Source: Entrophospora sp. SA101 (lineage: Eukaryota > Glomeromycota > Glomeromycetes > Entrophosporales > Entrophosporaceae). From it: a stretch of 11,795 nt of DNA. Positions 1-10,713 of this stretch are shown in pieces. Below the pieces are notes generated by a model. The model was not told the DNA's origin, did not search any database, and worked only from the letters and a program-made list of their open reading frames with translations. A program made the translations under genes and the position numbers. The stretch lies in NCBI GenBank assembly GCA_958430865.1, contig CAUDNR010004296.1, positions 33,710 through 45,504 of the forward strand, read 5' to 3'. Every line of letters starts with the position of its first letter. Within the stretch, counting starts at the first letter, position 1.

Positions 1-513
1 ATGGTTTTCAAGTCGATTTAATCCTCTAGTGATATTTATAAAGGGGTCTATATGTGCCATATCTGTATCTTCCTCTTTTGAATTATATAAACTTGGAGAG
101 CTTCTTCGAGAAGAAATAACTTTGAATCTATGCCTTAGATTTTGAACCCGCTCTTCTGATTCTTGTAACTGCCTCTCTATATTATCAATATAGGATATCT
201 TATCTCGGATTTCTTTTTTGTTATATGAGAGCTGTTTATTAAGGTTGGAGATTTCTGCTCTCAACTCTGCCTTTTCTTCCTCCGAAGCATTCTCGAGCTG
301 TTCCAGTTCTTTATTGAGAGATTGGATTTCATTCTGACACCTGGTATATTTACATTCCAGATCCTTTATATATTTCTCATTTGATTTGTTGATGGCTAAC
401 TCCGATTGTAATATCTCCTGGAGTTCTCGGTTAATTTGTTCTAGCTCGAGTTCTTTATCTGTAGCCAATCTATGAGTTGTTCGATTGGGAGGTCGGGGTC
501 TTTGAAATGCCAT
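1..513 (-). CDS. Coiled-coil protein, partial (C-terminus beyond the window)
   Basis: An open frame of 171 codons runs from an ATG at 513 (reading leftward) to the window edge with no stop, so it is the N-terminal part of a longer gene. After a short basic, proline-rich head (residues 1-15, MAFQRPRPPNRTTHR) it is almost entirely charged heptad-like sequence rich in E, K, Q, L and N (about residues 18-130), which predicts a long coiled coil. A serine-rich and then acidic stretch follows near residues 133-150. I see no catalytic motif. It is divergent from the integrase gene with only 97 nt between the two ATGs, suggesting a shared bidirectional promoter inside the same mobile element. A structural or accessory element protein is my inference; a host coiled-coil gene is the alternative. 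Confidence 0.75.
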   Translation of the reverse strand, partial: MAFQRPRPPNRTTHRLATDKELELEQINRELQEILQSELAINKSNEKYIKDLECKYTRCQNEIQSLNKELEQLENASEEEKAELRAEISNLNKQLSYNKKEIRDKISYIDNIERQLQESEERVQNLRHRFKVISSRRSSPSLYNSKEEDTDMAHIDPFINITRGLNRLENH

Positions 514-537
514 AGCTATTTTTACGGCATAATATAT

Positions 538-563
538 CTTTCATAGAAAGGAGACTTTGTCTC
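538..563. repeat. Double-hairpin element DH1
   Basis: Two perfect 13-nt hairpins lie end to end. The first has arms CTTTC and GAAAG around loop ATA; the second has arms GAGAC and GTCTC around loop TTT. It lies between the divergent coiled-coil and integrase genes, 47 nt before the integrase ATG, so it is probably in the 5' leader of the integrase mRNA or in the shared promoter. Confidence 0.8.
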
Positions 564-610
564 TTAACTTATCTTCCGACTTTGCTATACATAATTTGTA
601 CTATATAGAA

Positions 611-2302
611 ATGAGTAGGTCCTTAGACCATGCTTCGCATAAATTGGGCACACCTATTATTAGAATCGATCCAGATGAGGAATTAAACTTAATCTGTAAA
701 TTGCTTTTTTACCAACCTACTGGTTTTTTCTCCAATGCAAAAGCATTAAGAGATGCATGTAAAAAAGAAGGATATAATTTCCCATATAAAAAGGTTCGTG
801 AATGGTTGCATAACCAGAATGAATGGCAAAAATACGCACCATCGCCAAAAGATACTCCACGAGTTAGTTATGGTAAAATTCAAAAACCAAATTGTGTACA
901 TCAGTGCGACCTCCTATTTCTTACGCATGATCATTATAAAGGTAAAAAATGGATAGCGGTGCTTAATATAATAGACGTGTCTAGCAGGTACAAAGAGAGT
1001 GTTCCTCTCACATCGAAGAAAAGTTCGGAGGTTGCAAAAGCATTCAGGAAAATTTATGATGATCCCAATAACCCTCTTACATACCCGACACTTCTACAAT
1101 GCGATGGTGGTAAAGAATTCATGGGTGAAACTGCTCGATTAATGGAAGCGCATAATGTCACAATTCGAGTAATTGGTGCATATAGTCATCGTGGATTAGC
1201 TCTTGTAGAACGATTCAATAAGACGTTAGCAGAGATGCTTTATAAAATCCAGTATGCTGTCGAATCAATATCTAAAGATCATAAATTAATAAGAGAGTGG
1301 GTCAAGTATTTGCCAGAAGTTATCGATTACCTAAATAATTATCCAACACGTCTTATTAGAGCTCCTGGATCCTCGAAGTGGGGGTTGGCACCAATAAAAG
1401 CCATCAAATTAGAAAAGGTTGAATCTCGGCCATCCACAAAATATAAACGTCCTGTTGGGAAAAATGAGGAGAATAAGTTAAAGAAGGGTGATACAGTTCG
1501 TTACCTGCTTGCTAATGCGGAGTGGGAAGGAGGTATGGAGAATCAGAAAAGAGCCACGGATCCGGTATGGAGTCCAACTTTATTTAAAATTCGAAAAATT
1601 GTTGTAACGAAGAATGAACCAATTTTATATTATTTAGAAGGTGATGATGAATATGCTCCAAAGCGTGGATTTGTGAAAGAGGAACTCATGCACATAGATC
1701 TAGAAAAACTTCAGTATCCGCCCCAGAGTATATTGGAAGAAAACACTCGTTCCAGATCTATTAATTTCGTTCGTATTATTAATAAAACGTCTAAAGCCGA
1801 AGAGTATGCAAAGAAGCGTGACGGAAAATGTCTTGGTAAAACTGGCCAAATAAATGATTTCGATGTATATCTCTGGTCCTGTGAAAACGGGAAGCATCAG
1901 TTTGAGTATCCATTAGAAGTTTTAGAGCGGAAATTCGAATGGTGTCCCCTATGTCATCATAATAAAGGTGAGAGATCCGCGAGGTATATTTTCGAAGATC
2001 TGTTAGGTAAAAAATTTCCATCTTGTAAACCGTCATTTTTGAATGGGATGCAATTAGATGGATATAATGAAGAATTAAAATTGGCATACGAATTCCAGGG
2101 ACCTCAACATTTTTCCGAGAATCCAATGTTCCATAAGCGAGGCAAGATAGACTTAGATGAGCAAAGGAAGCGCGATCAAAAAAAACAGGATATATGTGCT
2201 CGAGAAGGTATAGATCTTATTTGTATCCCGTTCGATTGTGATTTATTTCCGTACATAAAAAGCAAATTACAAGAGAGAGGTTATTTATCGTATAAGAAAT
2301 AA
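611..2302 (+). CDS. Polinton/Maverick-type DDE integrase with C-terminal zinc ribbon and restriction-like nuclease domain
   Basis: A 563-residue protein from the first ATG. The frame is open upstream but holds only a TTG, unlikely as a eukaryotic start. Residues about 20-80 look like a helical DNA-binding head. The rve/RNase H core follows: catalytic D100 (in HQCDLLF), D165 (LQCDGGKEF) and E200 (LVERFNKTL), with 34 residues between the last two. An SH3/chromo-like integrase C-domain lies at about 290-365 ([10 protein letters not shown] ... GFVKEEL). An unusual tail follows: a zinc ribbon with C424, H429, C445 and C448, then a PD-(D/E)XK-like fold with D483 (QLDGYN), E494 and Q496 (YEFQGPQHF) and a basic helix. 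The role expected from the family is insertion of linear element DNA; the tail may bind or nick DNA. The packaging ATPase starts 15 nt downstream on the same strand. No intron and no break are seen. Confidence 0.9.
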
Positions 2303-2317
2303 ACTCATAGGATAAAT

Positions 2318-3082
2318 ATGGCACATAGTAAACTTGACCCATGCGAGATCTTTGTACTCAATGTCGATGAGTATACAAATCCAGAACGTTTTAATGGTAT
2401 TAACTCATGTCCACAGTGGCCTTTCAATGTCCTAGTATCAGGGCGGACTAGATCAGGGAAAACTAATATGATTATTAGTCTTTTACTTGGGAATAAAATG
2501 TTTCGAATGTTTAGTGGAAAAAAGGGTGGAACAAGATATATTAAGAATGATGACTTGGTTTTGTTCGGTCACCACCTTAAGGAGCCAAAATATAGACATT
2601 TGCGCGATTGTTACCGAATAATTTCAAATAGTCCAAAGCCATATCGTGAAGATATTACATTCCGAGCATTGAAACCTGACAAAATACCAAAAATAGAAGA
2701 ATTCTCTCCCAAAAGAGGAACAGTTGCTATATTCGAAGATGTATGCAATGAACCCAAAAAAATACAAGATAGAATTATTCCCTATTTTACCGAAGGGCGC
2801 CACTCTAATATTAGCTCGATATATGTCACACAATCTTTCTTCGACTGTCCTGGAAAAATAAGAAAAAATTTGGATTACATTTGTTTATTTAATGGCGCGG
2901 GCACATATGATGAACTAGTTAACATTGCCCGACGATATACAAAAAAATGGCGCGATGTTGTTGATATCCTTGATAAAAATTTACAAGGTAGAGAATTTAT
3001 TGTTATCGATTTAACTAGAGCAAAAGAAGACGCTTTATATCTTCGCAAGGGATGGGACCAGCCCCTTGATCTTTCTATCTAA
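2318..3082 (+). CDS. Polinton-type genome-packaging ATPase (A32/FtsK-HerA superfamily)
   Basis: A 254-residue P-loop ATPase. The Walker A motif is at residues 42-49 (GRTRSGKT), inside [16 protein letters not shown]. Walker B is at 135-142 (TVAIFEDV, with acidic E140 and D141). The conserved family segment follows: [16 protein letters not shown] at about 160-175, with R161 a likely arginine finger and Q172 a likely sensor. The length fits the A32-like ATPases of Polintons, virophages and large DNA viruses, which drive DNA into preformed capsids. It starts 15 nt after the integrase stop, a virus-like packing, and its stop overlaps the end of a small leftward frame. With the integrase it is the main evidence for a Polinton-like element here. 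Substrate and partners are inferred from the family. Confidence 0.9.
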
Positions 3083-3213
3083 CTGGATCGAGATTTCAGA
3101 TATTCAAGGTATTTTTCAGCTTCTTGCAATTCTATCCTCTTTTCTTCAACCTCATATCGCAATTTCTTATTTTCATTAACCCGCTTTTCATGATCTATAG
3201 TAATTTCTCGCAT
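3079..3213 (-). CDS. Possible small coiled-coil protein or 3' fragment
   Basis: A 44-codon frame with ATG at 3213, ending tail-to-tail with the ATPase gene (the two stop codons overlap). The product is nearly all charged helix-forming sequence ([20 protein letters not shown]), similar in character to the coiled-coil gene at the left edge. It may be a remnant or last exon of a related gene. Shortness and the lack of a recognised family keep confidence low. Confidence 0.3.
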
Positions 3214-3228
3214 AAATCGTTGTAATAT

Positions 3229-3254
3229 GAGTCAGAGACCCTATGCTCCGCATA
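3229..3254. repeat. Double-hairpin element DH2 (one mismatch)
   Basis: Hairpin 1 has arms GAGTC and GACCC around loop AGA; four of five pairs form, with one A-C mismatch of the kind a single transition would create. It abuts hairpin 2, arms TATGC and GCATA around loop TCC, which is perfect. It lies about 150 nt beyond the ATPase stop. Confidence 0.6.
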
Positions 3255-3428
3255 TACATAATTAGCACTTGAGTATCGGAAGTATAATTTCTTTTTTTTT
3301 TTCCTGATATTTCTGTCTATATAATATATCATACATCCTATCTGCCACTCATATTTTTGAGATGATCGAATCCTGCCGTATTTGAAGTTAGAGTGGATGT
3401 GTAAAAATATATTAGGTATCGATACATT

Positions 3429-3454
3429 ATTGCGAAGCAATGATCCTTTGGATC
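3429..3454. repeat. Double-hairpin element DH3
   Basis: Two perfect abutting 5-3-5 hairpins: arms ATTGC and GCAAT around loop GAA, then arms GATCC and GGATC around loop TTT. The ATTGC/GCAAT stem recurs in the copy at 7884-7909. A 10-bp palindrome, GTATCGATAC, lies just upstream at 3417-3426. Confidence 0.8.
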
Positions 3455-3528
3455 TATCTACACTAGGGGGATTTTTGTGTTGTATGAAATGAGTTTGTAT
3501 GCAAAAATATATAGATTTAAATGTGGTT

Positions 3529-3627
3529 GAGTCGTGCTAGAGTTGAGCTAGAGTCGCGCTAGATTTTTTCTATATAATTATATGTAAAATATCATACTTG
3601 TGCTAGAGTCGAGCTAGAATCACGCTA
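3529..3627. repeat. 99-bp array with 11-bp period
   Basis: Three units, GAGTCGTGCTA, GAGTTGAGCTA and GAGTCGCGCTA, fill 3529-3561. Three more, TACTTGTGCTA, GAGTCGAGCTA and GAATCACGCTA, fill 3595-3627. The 33 nt between them equal exactly three units, and the first of these, GATTTTTTCTA, still resembles a decayed unit. The whole is best read as nine units in one phase. Confidence 0.7.
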
Positions 3628-3688
3628 AAAATATATTAAATCATTATATTAAAATATATTAAATCATTATATTAAAATATAGTAAATT
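3628..3688. repeat. 23-bp tandem duplication, AT-rich
   Basis: Two identical 23-bp copies (3628-3650 and 3651-3673) are followed by a diverged partial third (3674-3688). The unit is nearly all A and T, with a single C at its 14th base. It directly follows the 11-bp array. Confidence 0.8.
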
Positions 3689-3884
3689 ATCTTTAACTAC
3701 CGCTAATTCGATTTTTTAGAAAAAAAGCTATTAATCATCACGAAATAGCAGTGAATAAAAGTCTAAAGTACTAGCCATCAAGGAATACTTTAGGTGGTTT
3801 TATTTTAAATATATGAATAAGTTATATAATAAATAGATATATTAACCAGATAAATAGATATGTGTATTGCTCTGCAGACACGGT

Positions 3885-4553
3885 CTATACATTGCTAACT
3901 TGACGCATTTCTGCTCGAATATTCTGCAAGCACGCATAATGCAAAGCGAGTTCAGTCGCCGTCAATCCATCTGGGCGATAAATCCACTCCACAACCTTCC
4001 TTTGTATTTTAATACATGCTTTAATCTTTTTTCCAACTTCTCTTGCACGTTTGATCCTTCTAATTGCATTTGTCGTCCATAATTCGTAGCGACGTAATGC
4101 ATAGTTGTCATCGTATTTACGTTCGGATTTGGGTTTTTGTATGATTTTTTGGTATTCTCCATAACTCACACCACAGTATTTATTTCCAGCACAATGAGAG
4201 GCCCAATGTTTTTCCATTCCAATATGATTATAGTTATTTCCCATATTTTTGGTTCGTTTTCCGGTATATACTAGTTGATTACAAGAGAAGCAGATAGCAA
4301 TACCAATTTCAGGCGCATAACTTTTATAAAATCCATTAACCTCAGACCAATATGTTATTAACTTCCTAGCTTCAAGATATTTTTTACTATTATAAGGTAA
4401 GAGATCATTTTCTCTAAAATATGTAAGACGTTCCCAAATCCGTTCCATCCATTCGGTAGGAGTCTCATTTGATGAAACGATACCCATCTCCAGAATTTCA
4501 TCCCATTCAGCGTCGGTACAATTAGTTCCACGTCTTTCACTTAAGCTAGCCAT
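3885..4553 (-). CDS. Zinc-finger protein with C-terminal IQ-like helix, function unknown
   Basis: A 222-residue intronless frame from ATG at 4553. Residues 10-75 are helical and W/E-rich. A Cys/His cluster follows: C88 and C91 (CFSC), then H110, H116, H120, C121 and C127, consistent with one BED-like or virus-type zinc finger that uses a subset of these. The C-terminal third is strongly basic and contains an IQ-like helix (KIQRKVVEWIYRPDG, about residues 182-196). I recall similar basic IQ-like tails in Rhizophagus and giant-virus hypothetical proteins, but cannot name a function. DNA or nucleic-acid binding is an inference from the finger and charge. It is transcribed away from the zinc-ribbon nuclease gene across a 163-bp spacer. 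Confidence 0.75.
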   Translation of the reverse strand: MASLSERRGTNCTDAEWDEILEMGIVSSNETPTEWMERIWERLTYFRENDLLPYNSKKYLEARKLITYWSEVNGFYKSYAPEIGIAICFSCNQLVYTGKRTKNMGNNYNHIGMEKHWASHCAGNKYCGVSYGEYQKIIQKPKSERKYDDNYALRRYELWTTNAIRRIKRAREVGKKIKACIKIQRKVVEWIYRPDGLTATELALHYACLQNIRAEMRQVSNV

Positions 4554-4716
4554 TTTATATAACCTATTTGTAGTGTTTATGGAAGTATATGTGATTTATA
4601 TCGAATTTAAGGATTAGACCTATTTGATTTAATAACTATATACTTTAGATATCTGAATTCATTTTTTGTGTAGAATTTGAACAGAAATTTATTTATATAA
4701 AACTTTGCTAATCTCA
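4554..4716. promoter_or_regulatory. Short bidirectional spacer with TATATAAA on both sides
   Basis: This 163-bp spacer separates two divergent genes. TATATAAA occurs at 4694-4701, about 15 nt before the rightward ATG, and on the other strand immediately before the leftward ATG. Both are too close to the annotated starts for ordinary TATA-box spacing, so either leaders are extremely short or these are simply AT-rich sequence. A role as promoter for both genes follows from position only. Confidence 0.4.
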
Positions 4717-5985
4717 ATGCGATTAAAAATAACCTTAAATGATGCTTGTAATATTGCCAGAACTCGTAATGGTTTGTGTCTTTCAGATACATATATTAAT
4801 ATTTCCACACCATTGAGATGGAAATGTTCTAAAGATCATGAATGGGATGCTCCACTTGATAGAATAAAATATAGGAATACTTGGTGCCCTGTTTGTGCAG
4901 GTCGGCATTCTTTTCATCTTGAAATTGCTAGAAAGATTGCTATAGATAGAGGTGGATTATGTCTTTCTATCCAATGTACAGCTACCAAGGAATTATTACA
5001 GTGGAGATGTTCCAAAGGTCATGAATGGTCAGCAACCTACAATAATATTATACACAATAAAAATTGGTGCATAAAATGTTCGCATAGAAAGCCTTGTACT
5101 CTTGAAGATGCTATAAAAGTCGCACATACTAGAAATGGAAAATGTCTTTCTGAAAAATTTATTAATGGTAAGTCACTATTATTATGGCGCTGTGCTGTAA
5201 GTCATGAATGGAATGCTAGTCTTGAGAGTGTAAAAAATAAAAACACATGGTGTCCACATTGTGTAGGAGGTAGACCCCGATATACTCTTGAAGATGCTAG
5301 AAAAATTGCGCATGATAGAAATGGGAAATGTCTTTCTGAAAAATATATTAATAGCATGACAGCTTTATTGTGGCGTTGTTCTAAAGGGTATGAATGGAAT
5401 GCAACATTTAATAGTATTAAAAATGCAAATTCATGGTGCCCCCATTGTTCTGGACGATACGCCTGTGATATTGATCAAGCCAAGCAAATTGCATTTAGTC
5501 GGAATGGCGAGTGTCTCTCTACCTCATATTTTAATAACTATTCAAATCTATTATGGAAATGTGTTAAAGGACATATATGGCATGCAACACTTAATTCTAT
5601 TAAAGATCGAAATACCTGGTGTCCAATTTGTCGAAATAAATATGAAAATTTATGTCATGAAATTGTTTCTAAATATCTTGGACCGCCATCTAAGATACGT
5701 CGTCCTAATTTCTTAAAAACACCAGAACATTCCACAGGTTTAGAACTTGATATATTTTATCCTGAATATGGTTTTGCAATTGAAGTACAAGGAGTGCAAC
5801 ATGAAAAATATATTGAATTCTTTCATAATGGTGATCCCAATAATTTTATTAAACAGCAAGCACGGGATCAACTCAAGAAAGAATTGTGCGAAGAAAACTG
5901 GATTGCTTTAAGATATGTCTGGTATTATGAAGATCCATATATAGTTGTTCCAGAACATCTTCGAGAATTGGGTCTTATTAAGTAA
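4717..5985 (+). CDS. Five-fold zinc-ribbon repeat protein with C-terminal restriction-like (Vsr/PD-(D/E)XK-like) nuclease domain
   Basis: A 422-residue protein from ATG 4717; the frame extends upstream only to a TTG. It has five tandem modules of about 57-62 residues, each with a helix (ARKIAHDRNGKCLSEKYIN type), then W-[RK]-C, a GHEW-type histidine, and W-C-x2-C. These match the DUF4379-like zinc-ribbon pattern (C, H, C, C ligands). Module 4 has Tyr225 (KGYEW) in place of the ligand His, so it may not hold zinc. Modules 3 and 4 are close at DNA level, indicating fairly recent internal duplication. The C-terminus (about 308-422) carries D345 (LELDIFYP), E356 and Q358 (AIEVQGVQH) and a basic helix, a nuclease-like core also present in the integrase tail at 2000-2300. 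Sequence-guided DNA binding or cleavage is inferred; nuclease activity is unproven. Confidence 0.88.
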   Translation: MRLKITLNDACNIARTRNGLCLSDTYINISTPLRWKCSKDHEWDAPLDRIKYRNTWCPVCAGRHSFHLEIARKIAIDRGGLCLSIQCTATKELLQWRCSKGHEWSATYNNIIHNKNWCIKCSHRKPCTLEDAIKVAHTRNGKCLSEKFINGKSLLLWRCAVSHEWNASLESVKNKNTWCPHCVGGRPRYTLEDARKIAHDRNGKCLSEKYINSMTALLWRCSKGYEWNATFNSIKNANSWCPHCSGRYACDIDQAKQIAFSRNGECLSTSYFNNYSNLLWKCVKGHIWHATLNSIKDRNTWCPICRNKYENLCHEIVSKYLGPPSKIRRPNFLKTPEHSTGLELDIFYPEYGFAIEVQGVQHEKYIEFFHNGDPNNFIKQQARDQLKKELCEENWIALRYVWYYEDPYIVVPEHLRELGLIK

Positions 5986-6213
5986 ATCTAAAACTTTAAA
6001 TGCTCCATGATTAAGCAATAAAATCTCATGTGCTATTTTATTTTTCTGACACACCCACATACACGCATATGCACAGTAAAGATAAGCCTAATATGGGCAT
6101 TGATAAATACAAAAAAAATAATAAGAACATGAAACAAGTTCAAAGTATTATAGATTGCAGTGCAGTGTCAACAAATAGGATTATTATAAAAACTTTAACA
6201 CATTACATATTCA

Positions 6214-7442
6214 TTATCTTGGCTGACTTTTCAAAACTACTCGCTGAATTTCGTAAAGATCAATGGTGAAATTACCATCAAGAATTGCAGGACGAGGATA
6301 AGAAACCAGTGGAACATATCCAATAGCTGGAATAGGTGGGTCATAAAATACATCACTTATCGGAATGTTGATCTGATATGCTGGATTACCCGGAGCATTA
6401 CATCCAGTAGGTTGACTACTACCAAAATGCCACTATTTTTTAGACATATACATGTAAATATCGAAAAGATAAAATAAACAGAATCTCTAAACAGTTTAAC
6501 ATTACTTTTCTGGTTTGCAATCCCTGTCTCCATAATTTAGCCTAATTTTTAAAAAGTTTTTTAGAATATCAACTACGAAACTACAACAAAATAGTCAACA
6601 GATACATACTTTCATTGATCGATTAAATTGTCCATGTGTATTTCGTGTAGTTTGCAAATCATAAAGTTTTATTCCTAATACACATCTCACGTACTGCTGA
6701 CTCATCCAAAGTTCACACTTATTTTTCAATCCACGGTAACTTTGACTAACTGCAACCTCACATACTATTCTAGCATGAGGATTCCCCTACAAAAATATAA
6801 GTATTAGAAAGTTGTATACAAAACAGATAATGATAATATACACCAAATTCAATGCACCCTTGTGTCGCTTGGGGGAGGTCCAAGATTAAGAGGTCCAGAA
6901 TTGGGAGGTCTTGGAACGTATGCCTCATTTGGAAGTACTGCAATATCCGGTGCAATCCTAAGTCCATCTGCATTTGGTGAAGGATGAACTATAAAAAGGA
7001 TGTAAGATATTAGAAAATCCATAAAAAGTCAAAGATCAAGCAAGCTTGAATTTTCTTACGTGGTTGACCCAAAACGATTATTGGTGGATCAATAATAACG
7101 CCACCATTTGGAATTTTGAAATAATCTTGCAATAGTGCAACAACATATTCATGTTCTTGTGTGCACATATCAATAATAAAAACGTTGCCGTTATTATATT
7201 CAAGCTTGTACCCAGATAGTTCACGGCTTTCAAGAAATTTGTTGTAGTTTTTTATCGATATATTGGAACCAATCTTAAAAGGTAAACTGCAATTCATGTG
7301 AGCTAACACTAAGTGGGACTTAAAGTAAAGGATCACAGTTCTATGATAAAATCATATGTTACCTATTCTCCTCTATAGGTTCCTTTGGAAATTTTGGAAG
7401 TCGGAATTGTTCTTGAAGCTTCTTAGTTAAATCACGAAACAT
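6214..7442 (-). CDS. Uma2-like (DUF820) restriction-endonuclease-fold protein, six exons
   Basis: Exons, reading leftward: 7442-7363, 7286-7060, 6988-6858, 6786-6610, 6541-6506 and 6432-6214. Introns are 76, 71, 71, 68 and 73 nt, all GT-AG, with phases matching at every junction. The product is 289 residues and ends at TAA 6214-6216. The Uma2 signature is visible: LEYNNGNVFIID followed by EHEYVVALLQ, then APDIAV with D117, then CEVAVSQS with E156 and nearby K167/K169, the PD-(D/E)XK-type core. The C-terminal part (NIPISDVFYDPPIP ... FTIDLYEIQRVVL) matches a fungal extension I recall from Rhizophagus Uma2-like proteins. In bacteria the fold belongs to mostly uncharacterised nuclease-like proteins; the fungal role is unknown. 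It diverges from the trihelix gene across a 471-bp promoter region. Confidence 0.85.
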
Positions 7443-7507
7443 TTTGAAAAAAGTTTGAGTAGAAAATATGACGTAGTTTTGTAGAAATAAGTCTCGAATT
7501 ATTACAT

Positions 7508-7515
7508 CATTTATA
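7508..7515 (-). promoter_or_regulatory. Candidate TATA box of the Uma2-like gene
   Basis: TATAAATG on the minus strand lies about 65 nt upstream of the ATG at 7442, a spacing close to that of the TATA elements of the two genes to the right. Assigned by sequence and position only. Confidence 0.4.
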
Positions 7516-7635
7516 GGTAAAGATAATCGGGTTATCGATCACAAGTCACGAGATATTTGAAAAGTAAACCGGCACGGGATCAAGGAAATCGCGGTTTAGC
7601 ACGTGAAAAAAGTAAATGAACATCCATAGATTTAT

Positions 7636-7679
7636 ACCGTTAAAACATGGTTGAAACAATGTTGAAGTGTGGTTGGAAA
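7636..7679. repeat. Decayed 11-bp-period repeat block
   Basis: Four consecutive 11-mers, ACCGTTAAAAC, ATGGTTGAAAC, AATGTTGAAGT and GTGGTTGGAAA, share a TGGTTGAAA-like core. They look like older versions of the clean minisatellite about 60 nt to the right. Confidence 0.5.
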
Positions 7680-7742
7680 AGCAATAAATTTTACAATAGC
7701 GGACTAGTACCAAGCACATATATCTTAACATAATCATGGATA

Positions 7743-7797
7743 TATGGTTAAAGTATGGTTAAAGTATGGTTAAAGTATGGTTAAAGTATGGTTAAAG
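7743..7797. repeat. Perfect 11-bp minisatellite, five copies
   Basis: TATGGTTAAAG is repeated five times without error. It ends 26 nt before a TATA box of the trihelix gene and sits in the divergent promoter region shared with the Uma2-like gene. The period is near one helical turn, so copies face the same side of the DNA. An inverted 13-nt match, TTAACCATACTTT, occurs at 11647-11659. Confidence 0.9.
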
Positions 7798-7823
7798 TAC
7801 TGCCAAAATACTTAAGATACACT

Positions 7824-7830
7824 TATAAAA
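7824..7830 (+). promoter_or_regulatory. Candidate TATA box of the trihelix/SANT-like gene
   Basis: TATAAAA in the context ACTTATAAAAGC, 84 nt before the chosen ATG at 7914. It supports choosing 7914 over the in-frame ATG at 7788, which lies upstream of this box and inside the minisatellite. Confidence 0.5.
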
Positions 7831-7883
7831 GCAACAAAATCCCACCTTCTCGCATTATATTCATTGTCGGGATAAATATCGTA

Positions 7884-7909
7884 GAGGCAAAGCCTCATTG
7901 CTCTGCAAT
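7884..7909. repeat. Double-hairpin element DH4
   Basis: Two perfect abutting 5-3-5 hairpins: arms GAGGC and GCCTC around loop AAA, then arms ATTGC and GCAAT around loop TCT. The element ends four nucleotides before the ATG of the trihelix gene. In the mRNA it would be a structured block directly in front of the start codon. Confidence 0.85.
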
Positions 7910-7913
7910 AAAA

Positions 7914-8808
7914 ATGGTTGAATGGACTGATACTCAAATACGTATCCTCATTGATGAGCGTAGAAATAGAAATGAAGAATATCATAATTTTGGAAGGAAT
8001 TGAATCAGATTTTGGGATAGCATCGCAACCAGAATTAATCAAGAACATAATACGAGCTTTAATGTAAAGAAAATTCCCGCCTTCTCAGTCAATGACCTCG
8101 AAGCCAGATATATACAGTTAGCAGGTAATCGACCAAATTTTTTTGCTTACATCTTAGCTATTATGACTAATAATTTATGTCAATTAGTTGATGTGTGATT
8201 ATATGGCAGGGAATCGAAGAGCACGAAGAAGTCGAATGGATGCGCAATACTTTGATGAGTTTCGTACGCATTTTTGGAAGAGGCCTGAAGATGAATTTGA
8301 TAAAATCCGCAACATTAATAGTTCTAATCGTAGACAACGTAGAATTTGGGGGAATAATACACCCGCACCATCTACTGGGGAAGTTGAACATGAATTAGGT
8401 CAAACATTGCCAGATAATCGAAGAAGCCGAAGAACTTCCGTTGATAGTCGAAGAAGTCGTAGACGGTCAGCATCTCCATCTCCACCCCGTGATGCTATAA
8501 ACACTAATACAAACAATCCTGGTGTGGAAAATCCTGAACAAAATATTGGCCATTCTGGCTCTATCGAATCATCATCTCTTCAACCACCACCTTATGAGGC
8601 CATAGATGAAGCACAAAATAATTCTTCAGAAATGAATCAGAGCCATGTTGTTTCTAATCGCGAAGTAGCTGTCTCTGGTAATATACCCTTGTCTCAAAAC
8701 GACAGTGATGTTAGTATGCATGATGTAGACCCTTCAGGTCATTACTCTGCAATAGGAGATAGTCAAACATTTTCTAATATGTATTCGATAAATGAAGAGG
8801 TTGGATAG
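7914..8808 (+). pseudogene. Trihelix/Myb-SANT-like DNA-binding protein with RS-rich tail, one in-frame stop
   Basis: From ATG 7914 the frame reads MVEWTDTQIRILIDERRNRNE, a trihelix start, then meets TGA at 8001-8003 (codon 30). It continues in the same frame with IRFWDSIATRINQEHNTSF and a third helix, FSVNDLEARYIQL. CGA to TGA is the likeliest lesion. An 85-nt intron at 8125-8209 (GTAATC ... GGCAG) joins in phase to RARRSRMDAQYFDEFRTHFW and RPEDEFDKIRNIN, the conserved C-terminal block of this family as I remember it. An RS/RRSRR-rich stretch (8400-8490) and a long Ser/Asn/Pro-rich disordered tail follow to TAG 8808. A second acceptor at 8187 would give a different frame beginning MCDYMAGN. 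A downstream ATG at 8191 could still make a product lacking the DNA-binding helices. A transcription-factor role is inferred from the fold. A sequencing error at 8001 is possible. Confidence 0.65.
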
Positions 8809-8863
8809 CGGAGCTAGTGTCTTATTTCTGGAGAAATGACATTCCATGCCTGACACATAAATT
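8805..8863. repeat. Duplicated double hairpin, copy A (filled)
   Basis: This starts at the stop codon of the trihelix gene. Arms TAGC and GCTA enclose loop GGA. Next come arm GTGTC (8817-8821) and its partner GACAC (8852-8856), separated by 30 nt instead of 3. The flanking ACATAAATT is shared with copy B at 8967-8998. The 30-nt loop contains another double hairpin. Confidence 0.75.
8824..8850. repeat. Nested double hairpin inside copy A
   Basis: Arms ATTTC and GAAAT enclose loop TGGA (8824-8837). They abut arms GACAT and ATGCC around loop TCC (8838-8850), which has one A-C mismatch. Removing these 27 nt leaves the host hairpin with an ordinary 3-nt TTT loop, as in copy B (loop TCT). Confidence 0.65.
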
Positions 8864-8966
8864 TTTAGTACTTTGTGCTACAAGCTTTGAGTAATATATT
8901 GTGGAACGTACCTTATTTGATCGCTAATATTACTATGATTTCATATTCCGAGATCGCCCATAGATA

Positions 8967-8998
8967 ATAGCGGAGCTAGTGTCTCTGACACATAAATT
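8967..8998. repeat. Duplicated double hairpin, copy B (empty)
   Basis: Arms TAGC and GCTA around loop GGA (8968-8978) abut arms GTGTC and GACAC around loop TCT (8979-8991), followed by ATAAATT. It matches copy A at 8805-8863 apart from the nested insertion and one loop base. Confidence 0.8.
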
Positions 8999-9062
8999 AA
9001 TTCATACATCCAAAATATTGCCCCGAAATTATTAATTTATTAACCTACAGAACTACTAACAT

Positions 9063-9070
9063 TATAAAAA
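9063..9070 (+). promoter_or_regulatory. Candidate TATA box of the RING gene
   Basis: TATAAAAA lies 47 nt before ATG 9118. A C-rich patch ending TTTCCCG follows it at about 9080-9087, loosely like the CCCACC patch after the trihelix TATA box. Confidence 0.45.
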
Positions 9071-9117
9071 CAAAGCACATTTCCCGTAAATGTACCATTA
9101 ATCATAAAATTACAGTT

Positions 9118-10175
9118 ATGAGCATTTCATGTCTAAAAACTCTTGCATTAAATATTCTTCAAAATTGCACTCCCGAAGCTATTGCAAGTGGTATCGAAAT
9201 TCCCGAACTAGATTCATGCTCAATATGTTATGAAGAAATTTTTTTTTAAGTCTAATAAAAAAGCCATTTACAGCTCTACCATGTGGTCATATATTTCATC
9301 GTACCTGTCTTGAAAACAGTATCACAAATGGTATAGAAATTTGTCCTGCTCGTGATTGTTCTAAATCTTTTGAATCGGAGTTGCAGGACGTTGAAGTATC
9401 AGAAGTACGATCTTTTTCATCCCAAGATGCTATGAGTATTGATGGATCATTAGAAAATTATTCTCGACAAAAAACCAACACATTGGAAAATGATCCGTCA
9501 CACCTAGATACGATCGCAGAAGACCCATCTGATGACAATCGTTCACAAAACAAAGAATCTGACATACCTGAAACATCGACTACAAGTACTTTGCCATCCA
9601 AACGCGTTAATAAATCTACCACTGTAGATAAATCATCCAGTAAAAAAGCGAAACTGGTTAAGAAGATAGAATCACCTACATTAAAAAAAATTATCAAAGA
9701 ATTATCAGCCGATGCTTCTCAGCAAGTCTCTTCGGGAAATACTATCATCTTACAGTCAGAATCTGCCCCTATAATAAACAAAGACTCGGTTAATTTTCTT
9801 GAATTGTATAATAAGATTACCTACGCTGAAGAAAATAATCAAAAAACGACCCAAGATGTGATTCGTTGTTATTACAATTTCGGGAAAGGCCTAACAATAT
9901 GGTTTGATCATTATCGACAATCTAATAATGAGGATGCATCCAATGCCCTCGTTAATGATAAAATTAGGGAACAGACTGTTGATAAAATTACGGAGGTCAA
10001 TCTTCGAAAAAGAAAGGAAAAGGCTAGGAAAATTTATAAACTTTTTAATAGTGTTGGTGTGGAGTTGATAGGGCGAGTTCGATCTTTTTCCGCATCAGCT
10101 ATTTCGAAATTAAGTCTGGATGATATTGATTATATAATAGCAAAAACTTTGAAAGCGAATCGAAATCTCGTTTAG
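9118..10175 (+). pseudogene. RING-finger protein with basic C-terminal domain, frameshifted at a poly-T run
   Basis: From ATG 9118 the first 43 codons encode a leader and the first RING pair (DSCSICYEE), then hit TAA at 9247 just after a nine-T run (9239-9247). The rest of the RING follows in another frame: ALPCGHIFHRTCLEN, then CPARDC. The order is C-x2-C ... C-x1-H-x2-H-x2-C ... C-x4-C, a RING-H2 with an unusually wide last pair. The frames would agree with one more T in the run. The same frame continues through a Ser/Asp/Asn-rich linker, a lysine-rich patch (SSKKAKLVKKI, a possible nuclear signal) and a helical C-terminal domain (NLRKRKEKARKIYKLFN ... VRSFSASAISKLSLDDIDYII) that I recall from many Rhizophagus proteins. 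The family role would be ubiquitin ligation. Real mutation, assembly error in the homopolymer, and slippage are all possible. Confidence 0.75.
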
Positions 10176-10204
10176 GGGTTGAGAAATATGTCTTACTGCG
10201 CCAC

Positions 10205-10222
10205 TGTGAACTTCGGTTCACA
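10205..10222. other. Stable hairpin with cUUCGg loop after the RING gene
   Basis: TGTGAAC, TTCG, GTTCACA: a perfect 7-bp stem closed by C-G around TTCG, the extra-stable tetraloop in RNA. It begins 30 nt after the stop at 10175, so it probably lies in the 3' untranslated region. It does not have the 5-3-5 double form of the other hairpins. Confidence 0.65.
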
Positions 10223-10248
10223 CCTATTTATGCAAAAATAATAAAGAT

Positions 10249-10713
10249 TTATAAAAAAAACTTTTGTTGATTTGCATTTTTAGTAAGAATATCCATACCG
10301 ATATCTGATGCGTCTGACTTCTTTGATACATCCACTTTGAATATTATCATCACATCGCCATAAACGAAAAAAGTCACATTATTTTTATTGCAGAGCAGGC
10401 CATTGGGCGATGAATCGAAGATTCGAGACTCTGTCTCTTCTATGAATCATGGCACTTATGTACCTGTTGTATGCGCTTTAAGTCTTTCATTTAATCCATG
10501 GCCCTGATCTTCTGCGATCCACTTTTTCAAGTATATAAGTGTATACTTACCTCCAATAAATTCCCTGACCGTAACTTCTTCGTGAAAATTAAAAGGAAGT
10601 TCATACATATATTTTACGGGATCTTTCTATGCCTTGGTATGAGCTCCGCTCTTAAATGTGGGTATGAATAGTTGAGTGTCTTTTTCATATTTTTCTAATT
10701 GTAAAGAAGGGAA
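10249..10713 (-). pseudogene. Decayed coding remnant, family not recognised
   Basis: Reading leftward in one frame, 155 codons look coding but contain three stops, at 10627-10629 (TAG), 10456-10458 (TAA) and 10447-10449 (TGA), and end at TAA 10249-10251. Protein-like blocks lie between the stops: KYEKDTQLFIPTFKSGAH, then YELPFNFHEEVTVREFIGG with YTLIYLKKWIAEDQGHGLNE, then TFFVYGDVMIIFKVDVSKKS. A good donor, GTAAGT, occurs at about 10551, so part of the decay could instead be intron structure. I cannot name the protein. The double hairpin at 10412-10437 lies inside it. Confidence 0.5.
10412..10437. repeat. Double-hairpin element DH6
   Basis: Two perfect abutting 5-3-5 hairpins: arms GAATC and GATTC around loop GAA, then arms GAGAC and GTCTC around loop TCT. 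The second stem is identical to the second stem of the copy at 538-563. A decayed ATTGC-AGA-GCA motif at 10388-10398 may be a remnant of a neighbouring copy. Confidence 0.8.

Follow-up and report, generated by a model that had tools for sequence, protein, structure and literature searches.

Introduction

Short elements built from two adjacent hairpins are known from the mitochondrial DNA of chytrids (Allomyces and others) and fission yeasts (Schizosaccharomyces) (PMC10085805); this and the other papers cited by accession are drawn on in excerpt, and what is said of them extends to those parts. In fission-yeast mitogenomes such double hairpins are potentially mobile, lie mostly between genes and occasionally within rRNA genes, and were sought by a GC content above 75% (PMC10085805). 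Mobility has also been proposed for the double-hairpin elements of Allomyces, said in the excerpt to have no flanking duplications (PMC2800124), and for palindromes in Fusarium mitochondria (PMC7218506). The GC clusters of yeast mitochondria are short palindromes with high turnover, short flanking direct repeats, merger and shuffling, and the four most abundant are given in the excerpted table as 32-42 nt long, with 75-86% GC and AG or ACT flanks (PMC4478555). The subject here is an 11,795-nt stretch of DNA from the fungus Entrophospora sp. SA101, hereafter the window, in which an initial annotation had described a family of 26-nt double hairpins with variable stems and a fixed architecture. 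They are probably non-autonomous nuclear mobile elements of a Glomeromycotina fungus, defined by their structure and inserted at (A/T)T(A/T) with duplication of a single T.

Two other systems invite comparison. IS200/IS605 and their short derivatives recognise single-stranded DNA hairpins and insert beside a short fixed sequence; the unit described here differs in consisting of the hairpins alone and in the absence of any Y1 (HUH) transposase match in this genome. The internal eliminated sequences of Paramecium have a minimum size of ~26 bp, short flanking repeats, locations inside genes, TA flanks and programmed excision, as found in ciliates. The elements resemble them in size, in their short flanking repeats and in occurring within genes, and are unlike them in being double hairpins with T rather than TA flanks.

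The closest likeness is to the mitochondrial double-hairpin elements: two adjacent hairpins, a conserved structure with a variable sequence, and optional presence at homologous sites. Unlike these, the elements are very probably nuclear, and the six in the window have a GC content of 38-54% by direct count, compared with the fission-yeast criterion of more than 75%. They also stand apart, as far as the excerpts go, in their 26-bp unit (24 bp in one variant, at 8968; elements are named by their first position in the window), C-G-closed triloops, T on both flanks and in-frame copies in open reading frames (ORFs). Where the excerpt on Allomyces reports no flanking duplication, filled and empty sites differ here by 27 bp at 3429 and by 26 bp at 538. 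The elements share with the yeast GC clusters (GC42 and relatives) a short, palindromic form and short flanking direct repeats; unlike those mitochondrial clusters they are bounded by T...T, at 17 of 17 loci, and not by AG or ACT. They behave like mitochondrial double-hairpin elements, yet by compartment and composition they are not such elements. Searches of the open-access literature aimed at such elements, with subscription journals mostly outside their scope, brought up none described for a nuclear genome.

Architecture and chance expectation

All six positions listed in the initial annotation hold what was claimed for them (Table 1). Four are perfect doubles in which two hairpins, each with a 5-bp stem and a 3-nt loop, directly abut (5-3-5/5-3-5). 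The two described as near-perfect are an element with nine of its ten pairs, at 3229, and a 24-nt double of the form 4-3-4/5-3-5, at 8968, in which every pair is intact. Read by eye, the pair closing the loop is C-G in all 12 hairpins. The minimum-energy fold of the 3229 element leaves hairpin 1 not fully closed, and its homologue at L086:7033 is perfect (arms GGGTC and GACCC).

Dinucleotide shuffling reproduced the quoted chance expectation of about 0.03 perfect doubles per window (0.032 per shuffle over 600 shuffles). The window holds four, all C-closed, whereas doubles with both loops C-closed averaged 0.0 in the shuffles; other spacings from -2 to +11 gave no double in the window. The comparison was widened to a 94.4-kb set comprising the window, six loci selected by homology to it (L082-L087, five of which also held a known GAGAC site) and eight loci fetched as carriers of GAGACTTTGTCTC (L001-L008). 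This set contains 20 perfect doubles at spacing 0 versus 0.0 in shuffled sequence, and no other spacing between -2 and 11 has more than 1. At spacing 0 no doubles were formed by 6-3, 5-4, 5-5 or 6-4 hairpins, so the excess is specific to abutment and to the 5-bp/3-nt geometry. Relaxing the requirement to nine of ten pairs gave 36 versus 5.4, and 25 versus 0.1 once C closure was added. Weak excesses were seen for 5-4 hairpins at spacing 1 (3 versus 0.4 in the same set) and for C-closed doubles with 3/5-nt loops and at least eight pairs (8 versus 0.8). The window and L082-L087 alone (71.6 kb) hold 16 C-closed doubles, of which several duplicate each other. Unselected loci totalling 117.8 kb gave three perfect doubles versus 1.0 in shuffles, two with AT-only stems and one a C-closed family member. 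The shuffle, spacing and geometry comparisons rule out a chance origin, and the proposed structural family stands far above chance expectation.

Flanking bases and probable insertion site

Flanks were scored for C-closed elements with at least nine of ten pairs. Their 26 distinct 50-mers reduced to 17 insertion loci, counted as independent when their flanks had more than 8 differences in 24 bases, and one member of each was scored. In a single orientation, all 17 loci carry T on both sides. With the threshold lowered to eight pairs, T...T was read in 22 of the 23 rows from the window and the fetched 10-kb loci, the exception being an 8-pair case flanked by G...A. None of the genome-wide matches to the ATTGC family described below has a base other than T on the left, and the base following the right-hand T is A in 51 of 57 and T in the remaining 6.

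These flanks suggest that the elements insert at (A/T)T(A/T) and duplicate 1 bp, the T, as the 27-bp difference at 3429 implies; the corresponding difference at 538 is 26 bp, at 72-81% identity. Alternatively, one T may belong to the element itself. The initial annotation overlooked these T...T flanks, as well as the 27-bp unit and the optional presence of the elements.

Presence and absence at paralogous sites

Comparison of paralogous sites revealed that the elements are optional, with 26 or 27 bp absent from empty sites. Four paralogues of the 3429 site (L088-L091), whose flank identity is 93-98%, are missing exactly 27 bp: the unit of 26 bp together with a single T. The 538 element is present in L028 and L029 and missing from L031-L035. 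Two of the latter, L034 and L035, instead carry a different double hairpin ~25 bp away that is missing from the others.

The situation at 10412 is more complex. A 51-bp segment around this element is missing from L042-L045. The segment belongs to a composite of ~75 bp (10387-10460) made of an outer ATTGC hairpin, an inner GAATC/GAGAC double hairpin and a TTCTTTGAATC-like tail. This composite recurs in unlike contexts (L046, L047, L048 and L057), and its 551-bp surroundings are found at five near-identical places, the window included.

Families of elements across the genome

For the ATTGC family, the whole genome was searched with the pattern TATTGCNNNGCAATGNNNCNNNGNNNCT, in which three of the hairpin-2 pairs are left free, and with the reversed pattern as a control. 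There were 57 exact matches (20 distinct sequences on 40 contigs) and 20 with one mismatch; the control gave 0. The three free pairs are all complementary at 46 of the 57 places and in 16 of the 20 distinct sequences, which display seven different stems. A GAGAC-family pattern was found at 30 places with a control count of 0, so that counts for both family patterns exceed their controls across the genome (57 versus 0 and 30 versus 0), contrary to the outcome named beforehand as evidence against a family. Among ten distinct GAGAC-family hairpin-1 sequences, in which four of the five pairs were left free, seven are perfect and three have one mismatch, as judged by eye. Specificity is lower for the lone GAGAC hairpin (44 places versus 20 for the control), and some of its occurrences have no partner hairpin. 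The 24-nt variant occurs as 18 exact copies, with 8 further copies at one mismatch, 12 at two and none in the control; at least three of the nine contexts read are unlike.

Covariation was assessed on 32 distinct ATTGC-family sequences (20 exact and 12 with one mismatch). Both sides of a pair had changed in 38 cells, where shuffles gave 10.5. The paired share of cells was 95.6%, compared with 29-43% when the partner was slid. Some stems recur with reverse-complement loops, as in GACCC-AAA-GGGTC and GACCC-TTT-GGGTC, or GATCC-AAA-GGATC and GATCC-TTT-GGATC. A presence in viruses was considered and rejected: in IMG/VR, the core pattern without its Ts hit at least 120 stretches, and over 80 of these loci the three free pairs of hairpin 2 were all complementary in 1 of 81 matches, which is the chance level. 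A further stem pair, GTGTC-AAA-GACAC/TGGGC-TCT-GCCCA, shares a stretch of 213 bp with a second double hairpin, which it adjoins (L067:172).

Composition of the loops

Loops were tallied over the 17 independent loci and the 20 distinct ATTGC-family elements, two overlapping sets with 74 loops in all, of which 69 are all-purine or all-pyrimidine. The proposed order, a purine loop 1 followed by a pyrimidine loop 2, holds as a bias (12 of 17 loci and 12 of 20 ATTGC-family elements) and fails as a strict rule, and it is retained only in the former sense. The eight exceptions in the ATTGC family comprise five purine-purine, two pyrimidine-pyrimidine and one mixed element. Because this order is the same after reverse complementation, it carries no strand information. 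A kissing interaction between the two loops had also been suggested. Loops are fully complementary in 1 of 17 loci and 3 of 20 ATTGC-family elements, compared with 2.5 and 2.6 when loops are re-dealt; in the absence of any excess, this structure was dropped.

Copies within open reading frames

The statement that all elements lie outside intact coding sequence does not hold in general. Perfect copies were found inside four ORFs of 302-554 codons in the fetched relatives: L082:1073 (554 codons, open at the locus end), L082:4643 (324), L087:3104 (316) and L019:6105 (302). A degenerate element also lies in the window's own 206-codon ORF, and the in-ORF copies occupy more than one reading frame. 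A 27-bp footprint corresponds to nine codons.

The 554-codon ORF encodes a family-B DNA polymerase (PF00136), and the 324- and 302-codon ORFs matched no Pfam family. At the protein level, 15 of 27 polymerase homologues were aligned. Ten of the 15, from Entrophospora, Diversispora, Ambispora, Gigaspora and Cetraspora, have an element-like peptide at the same place; in one of these (P0123) the peptide encoded by the element is interrupted by exactly nine additional residues. Two homologues from Rhizophagus differ at this place. The stretch is missing from the remaining three, with larger gaps in P0124 and P0132 and a gap of exactly nine residues in P0134. The spread of the peptide over several genera means that the polymerase copy is old, or that polymerase genes have moved between lineages.

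For L082:4643, four alignments among the 120 listed homologues reached the relevant part; three contain the peptide and one is too diverged. This element lies near the start of its ORF, some homologues of which carry the names gag-pol fusion or aspartic peptidase in Rhizophagus. Judging from such sequence annotation, the elements may also enter retroelement-like genes.

Possible origin and spread of the elements

The case for mobility starts from a fixed shape with variable stems, T flanks, a unit size, optional presence, identical copies in unlike contexts and copies inside ORFs. The unit would be a hairpin 1 with a mostly all-purine loop abutting a hairpin 2 with a mostly all-pyrimidine loop, each of 5 bp with a C-G-closed 3-nt loop. 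A trans-acting enzyme could recognise the folded single strand, a nicked dumbbell with a stacked stem of 10 bp and two triloops, and insert it at (A/T)T(A/T), duplicating the single T. If only well-folded copies were moved, the arms would stay paired while their letters drift, and inversion of a hairpin in place would yield the same stem with a reverse-complement loop. A 27-bp insertion preserves the reading frame, and copies could survive inside genes. Polinton-like DNA is perhaps rich in elements since its replication would expose single strands. The rve integrase encoded in the window is unlikely to be the moving enzyme, since integrases of this type make target duplications of several bases.

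Several observations weigh against mobility of this kind. No moving enzyme was found: the Y1 transposase profile PF01797 had 0 matches in the unmasked sequence of this genome, and 5 of 14 control genomes gave matches. In the unselected loci, one to three doubles occur at other spacings too, and spacing 0 is not distinctive. Hairpin 2 is imperfect in 11 of the 57 ATTGC-family matches, and two of five covariation measures are at shuffle level (pairs changed on both sides, 3 versus 2.8; further pair types, 11 versus 10.1). Several copies of the 24-mer share some flank resemblance (20-24 of 40 bases). The 538 element differs from L031-L033 by 26 and not 27 bp, at 72-81% identity, and P0134 has other gaps resembling annotation errors. 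At 3429, a similar element occupies the corresponding place in a more diverged paralogue (L092, 76% identity), and the aligned stretch of five more matches at 73-76% contains T-ATTGC...GACCC-CTT-GGATC-T. The DNA-level search, moreover, covered this fungal genome alone.

The six diverged places with a similar element make precise loss at 3429 in L088-L091 as plausible as gain, and this lends weight to an explanation without transposition. Here, old hairpins would be kept by template switching during replication, would spread only as passengers of duplicated Polinton-like DNA, and would leave empty sites by slippage deletion between the flanking Ts. Quasi-palindrome correction keeps arms paired without selection, a 27-bp loss from T to T is the expected slippage over a palindrome, and the polymerase site is common to several Glomeromycotina genera at the protein level. 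We nevertheless regard this explanation as unlikely, as it leaves unaccounted for the enriched 5-3-5 geometry, C-G closure and spacing 0, the T...T flanks at 17 of 17 loci, the identical 24-mers in unlike contexts, and the two different elements ~25 bp apart that are each absent from the other paralogue.

Descent from a larger transposon with hairpin-bearing ends, of which the elements would be fragments or terminal relics, could accommodate the recurrence of the ~75-bp composite with its nested element in several contexts and the AT-rich right flanks common to some 24-mer copies. It is very unlikely given the many different stems and given filled/empty boundaries at 3429 and 538 that coincide with the 26-bp unit, plus or minus one T. 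The 538 and 7884 elements precede ATGs by 47 nt and 4 nt, and the 8806 copy begins at a stop codon; these positions would suit regulatory hairpins in RNA or DNA, such as those of 5' untranslated regions or the 3' ends of Polinton-like genes. Such a role is very improbable indeed as an explanation of the whole family: position relative to genes is not consistent, perfect copies lie inside ORFs, paralogous upstream regions lack the elements, and the flank rule is left unexplained.

Beyond non-autonomous mobility as such, a broader claim can be put forward tentatively, as a possibility somewhat short of probable. The elements may be nuclear transposable elements of a new class, recognised by folded shape and not by sequence: a 26-nt dumbbell that enters (A/T)T(A/T), duplicating 1 bp, and whose frame-preserving spread through virus-like and other genes of Glomeromycotina adds nine-residue peptides, including one in a Polinton-like DNA polymerase. 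If this is true, few of the mobile elements proposed for nuclear genomes would be smaller. With a fixed architecture, a flank rule and well over 100 matching places (77 for the ATTGC family, 38 for the 24-mer and 30 for the GAGAC family), how ultra-short elements move would become directly testable, and a 27-bp footprint that leaves the frame intact would supply proteins with in-frame insertions.

Host DNA and other features of the window

In an assembly of 101 Mb and 2,123 contigs, the window forms the end of contig C1790. Its ORFs include the integrase and the A32-like ATPase (Table 1), genes to be expected in Polinton/Maverick-like DNA. The ATPase has named homologues in Diversispora, Cetraspora, Geosiphon and Rhizophagus, and the DNA polymerase ORF of a sister locus is 99% identical to an Entrophospora sp. 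SA101 protein. The element-bearing DNA is very probably nuclear and not mitochondrial, to judge from sequence context, because Polinton-like genes occur on the same contig, the 57 pattern matches are spread over 40 contigs, and protein homologues sit on contigs of megabases in other species. Polinton-like DNA seems to be where the elements concentrate, though five of the six sister loci already had a known copy when they were chosen. The GC content of the window is 0.344, compared with 0.25-0.32 in unselected loci; a 1.5-Mb endogenous viral region of R. irregularis is reported, in the excerpt used, to have 36.6% GC versus 28.0% in the remainder of the chromosome (PMC10640383). A search of IMG/VR with the window's integrase matched no viral contig, and phage records compared with positions 1-3500 of the window gave no near match.

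Table 1. Features of the window. Hyphens separate stem arms from loops; a slash marks the junction between hairpins.
Feature	Positions	Strand	Remarks
rve-type integrase ORF	533..2302	+	PF00665, 31.9 bits, slightly below the 32.6 cut-off; Polinton/Maverick-like surroundings
Perfect double hairpin CTTTC-ATA-GAAAG/GAGAC-TTT-GTCTC	538..563	+	T...T flanks; between divergent ORFs (ATG 513, - strand; ATG 611, + strand)
A32-like ATPase ORF	2303..3082	+	PF04665 (Pox_A32-type); Polinton/Maverick-like context
Near-perfect double hairpin GAGTC-AGA-GACCC/TATGC-TCC-GCATA	3229..3254	+	9/10 pairs
Perfect double hairpin ATTGC-GAA-GCAAT/GATCC-TTT-GGATC	3429..3454	+	flanks T...TA
Perfect double hairpin ATTGC-AGA-GCAAT/GAGGC-TTT-GCCTC (T...T orientation)	7884..7909	-	ATG 4 nt downstream, at 7914
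Degenerate double hairpin, 8/10 pairs	8728..8753	-	within ORF 8188-8805; T...TA flanks on - strand
Copy of the 8968 element in which 30 nt replace TCT as the second loop (+27 nt)	8806..8856	-	
24-nt variant TAGC-GGA-GCTA/GTGTC-TCT-GACAC, perfect 4-3-4/5-3-5	8968..8991	-	
51-bp optional segment, set into an ATTGC-AGA-GCA^AT hairpin (start 10387)	10398..10448	+	
Perfect double hairpin GAATC-GAA-GATTC/GAGAC-TCT-GTCTC	10412..10437	+	T...T flanks; within the 51-bp optional segment

On inspection by eye, the extra 27 nt in the 8806 copy resemble a nested double hairpin in degenerate form. A tandem repeat of GGTTAAAGTAT, in ~5 copies (7745-7799), lies upstream of the 7884 element. The ORF at 4681-5985 has ~5 repeats of a CxxC zinc-ribbon-like motif, recognised by eye, and a C-terminal domain, and matched no Pfam family above the cut-off. 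A lone hairpin with a TTCG tetraloop, TGTGAAC-TTCG-GTTCACA, is present at 10205-10222 and is not of the double-hairpin type.

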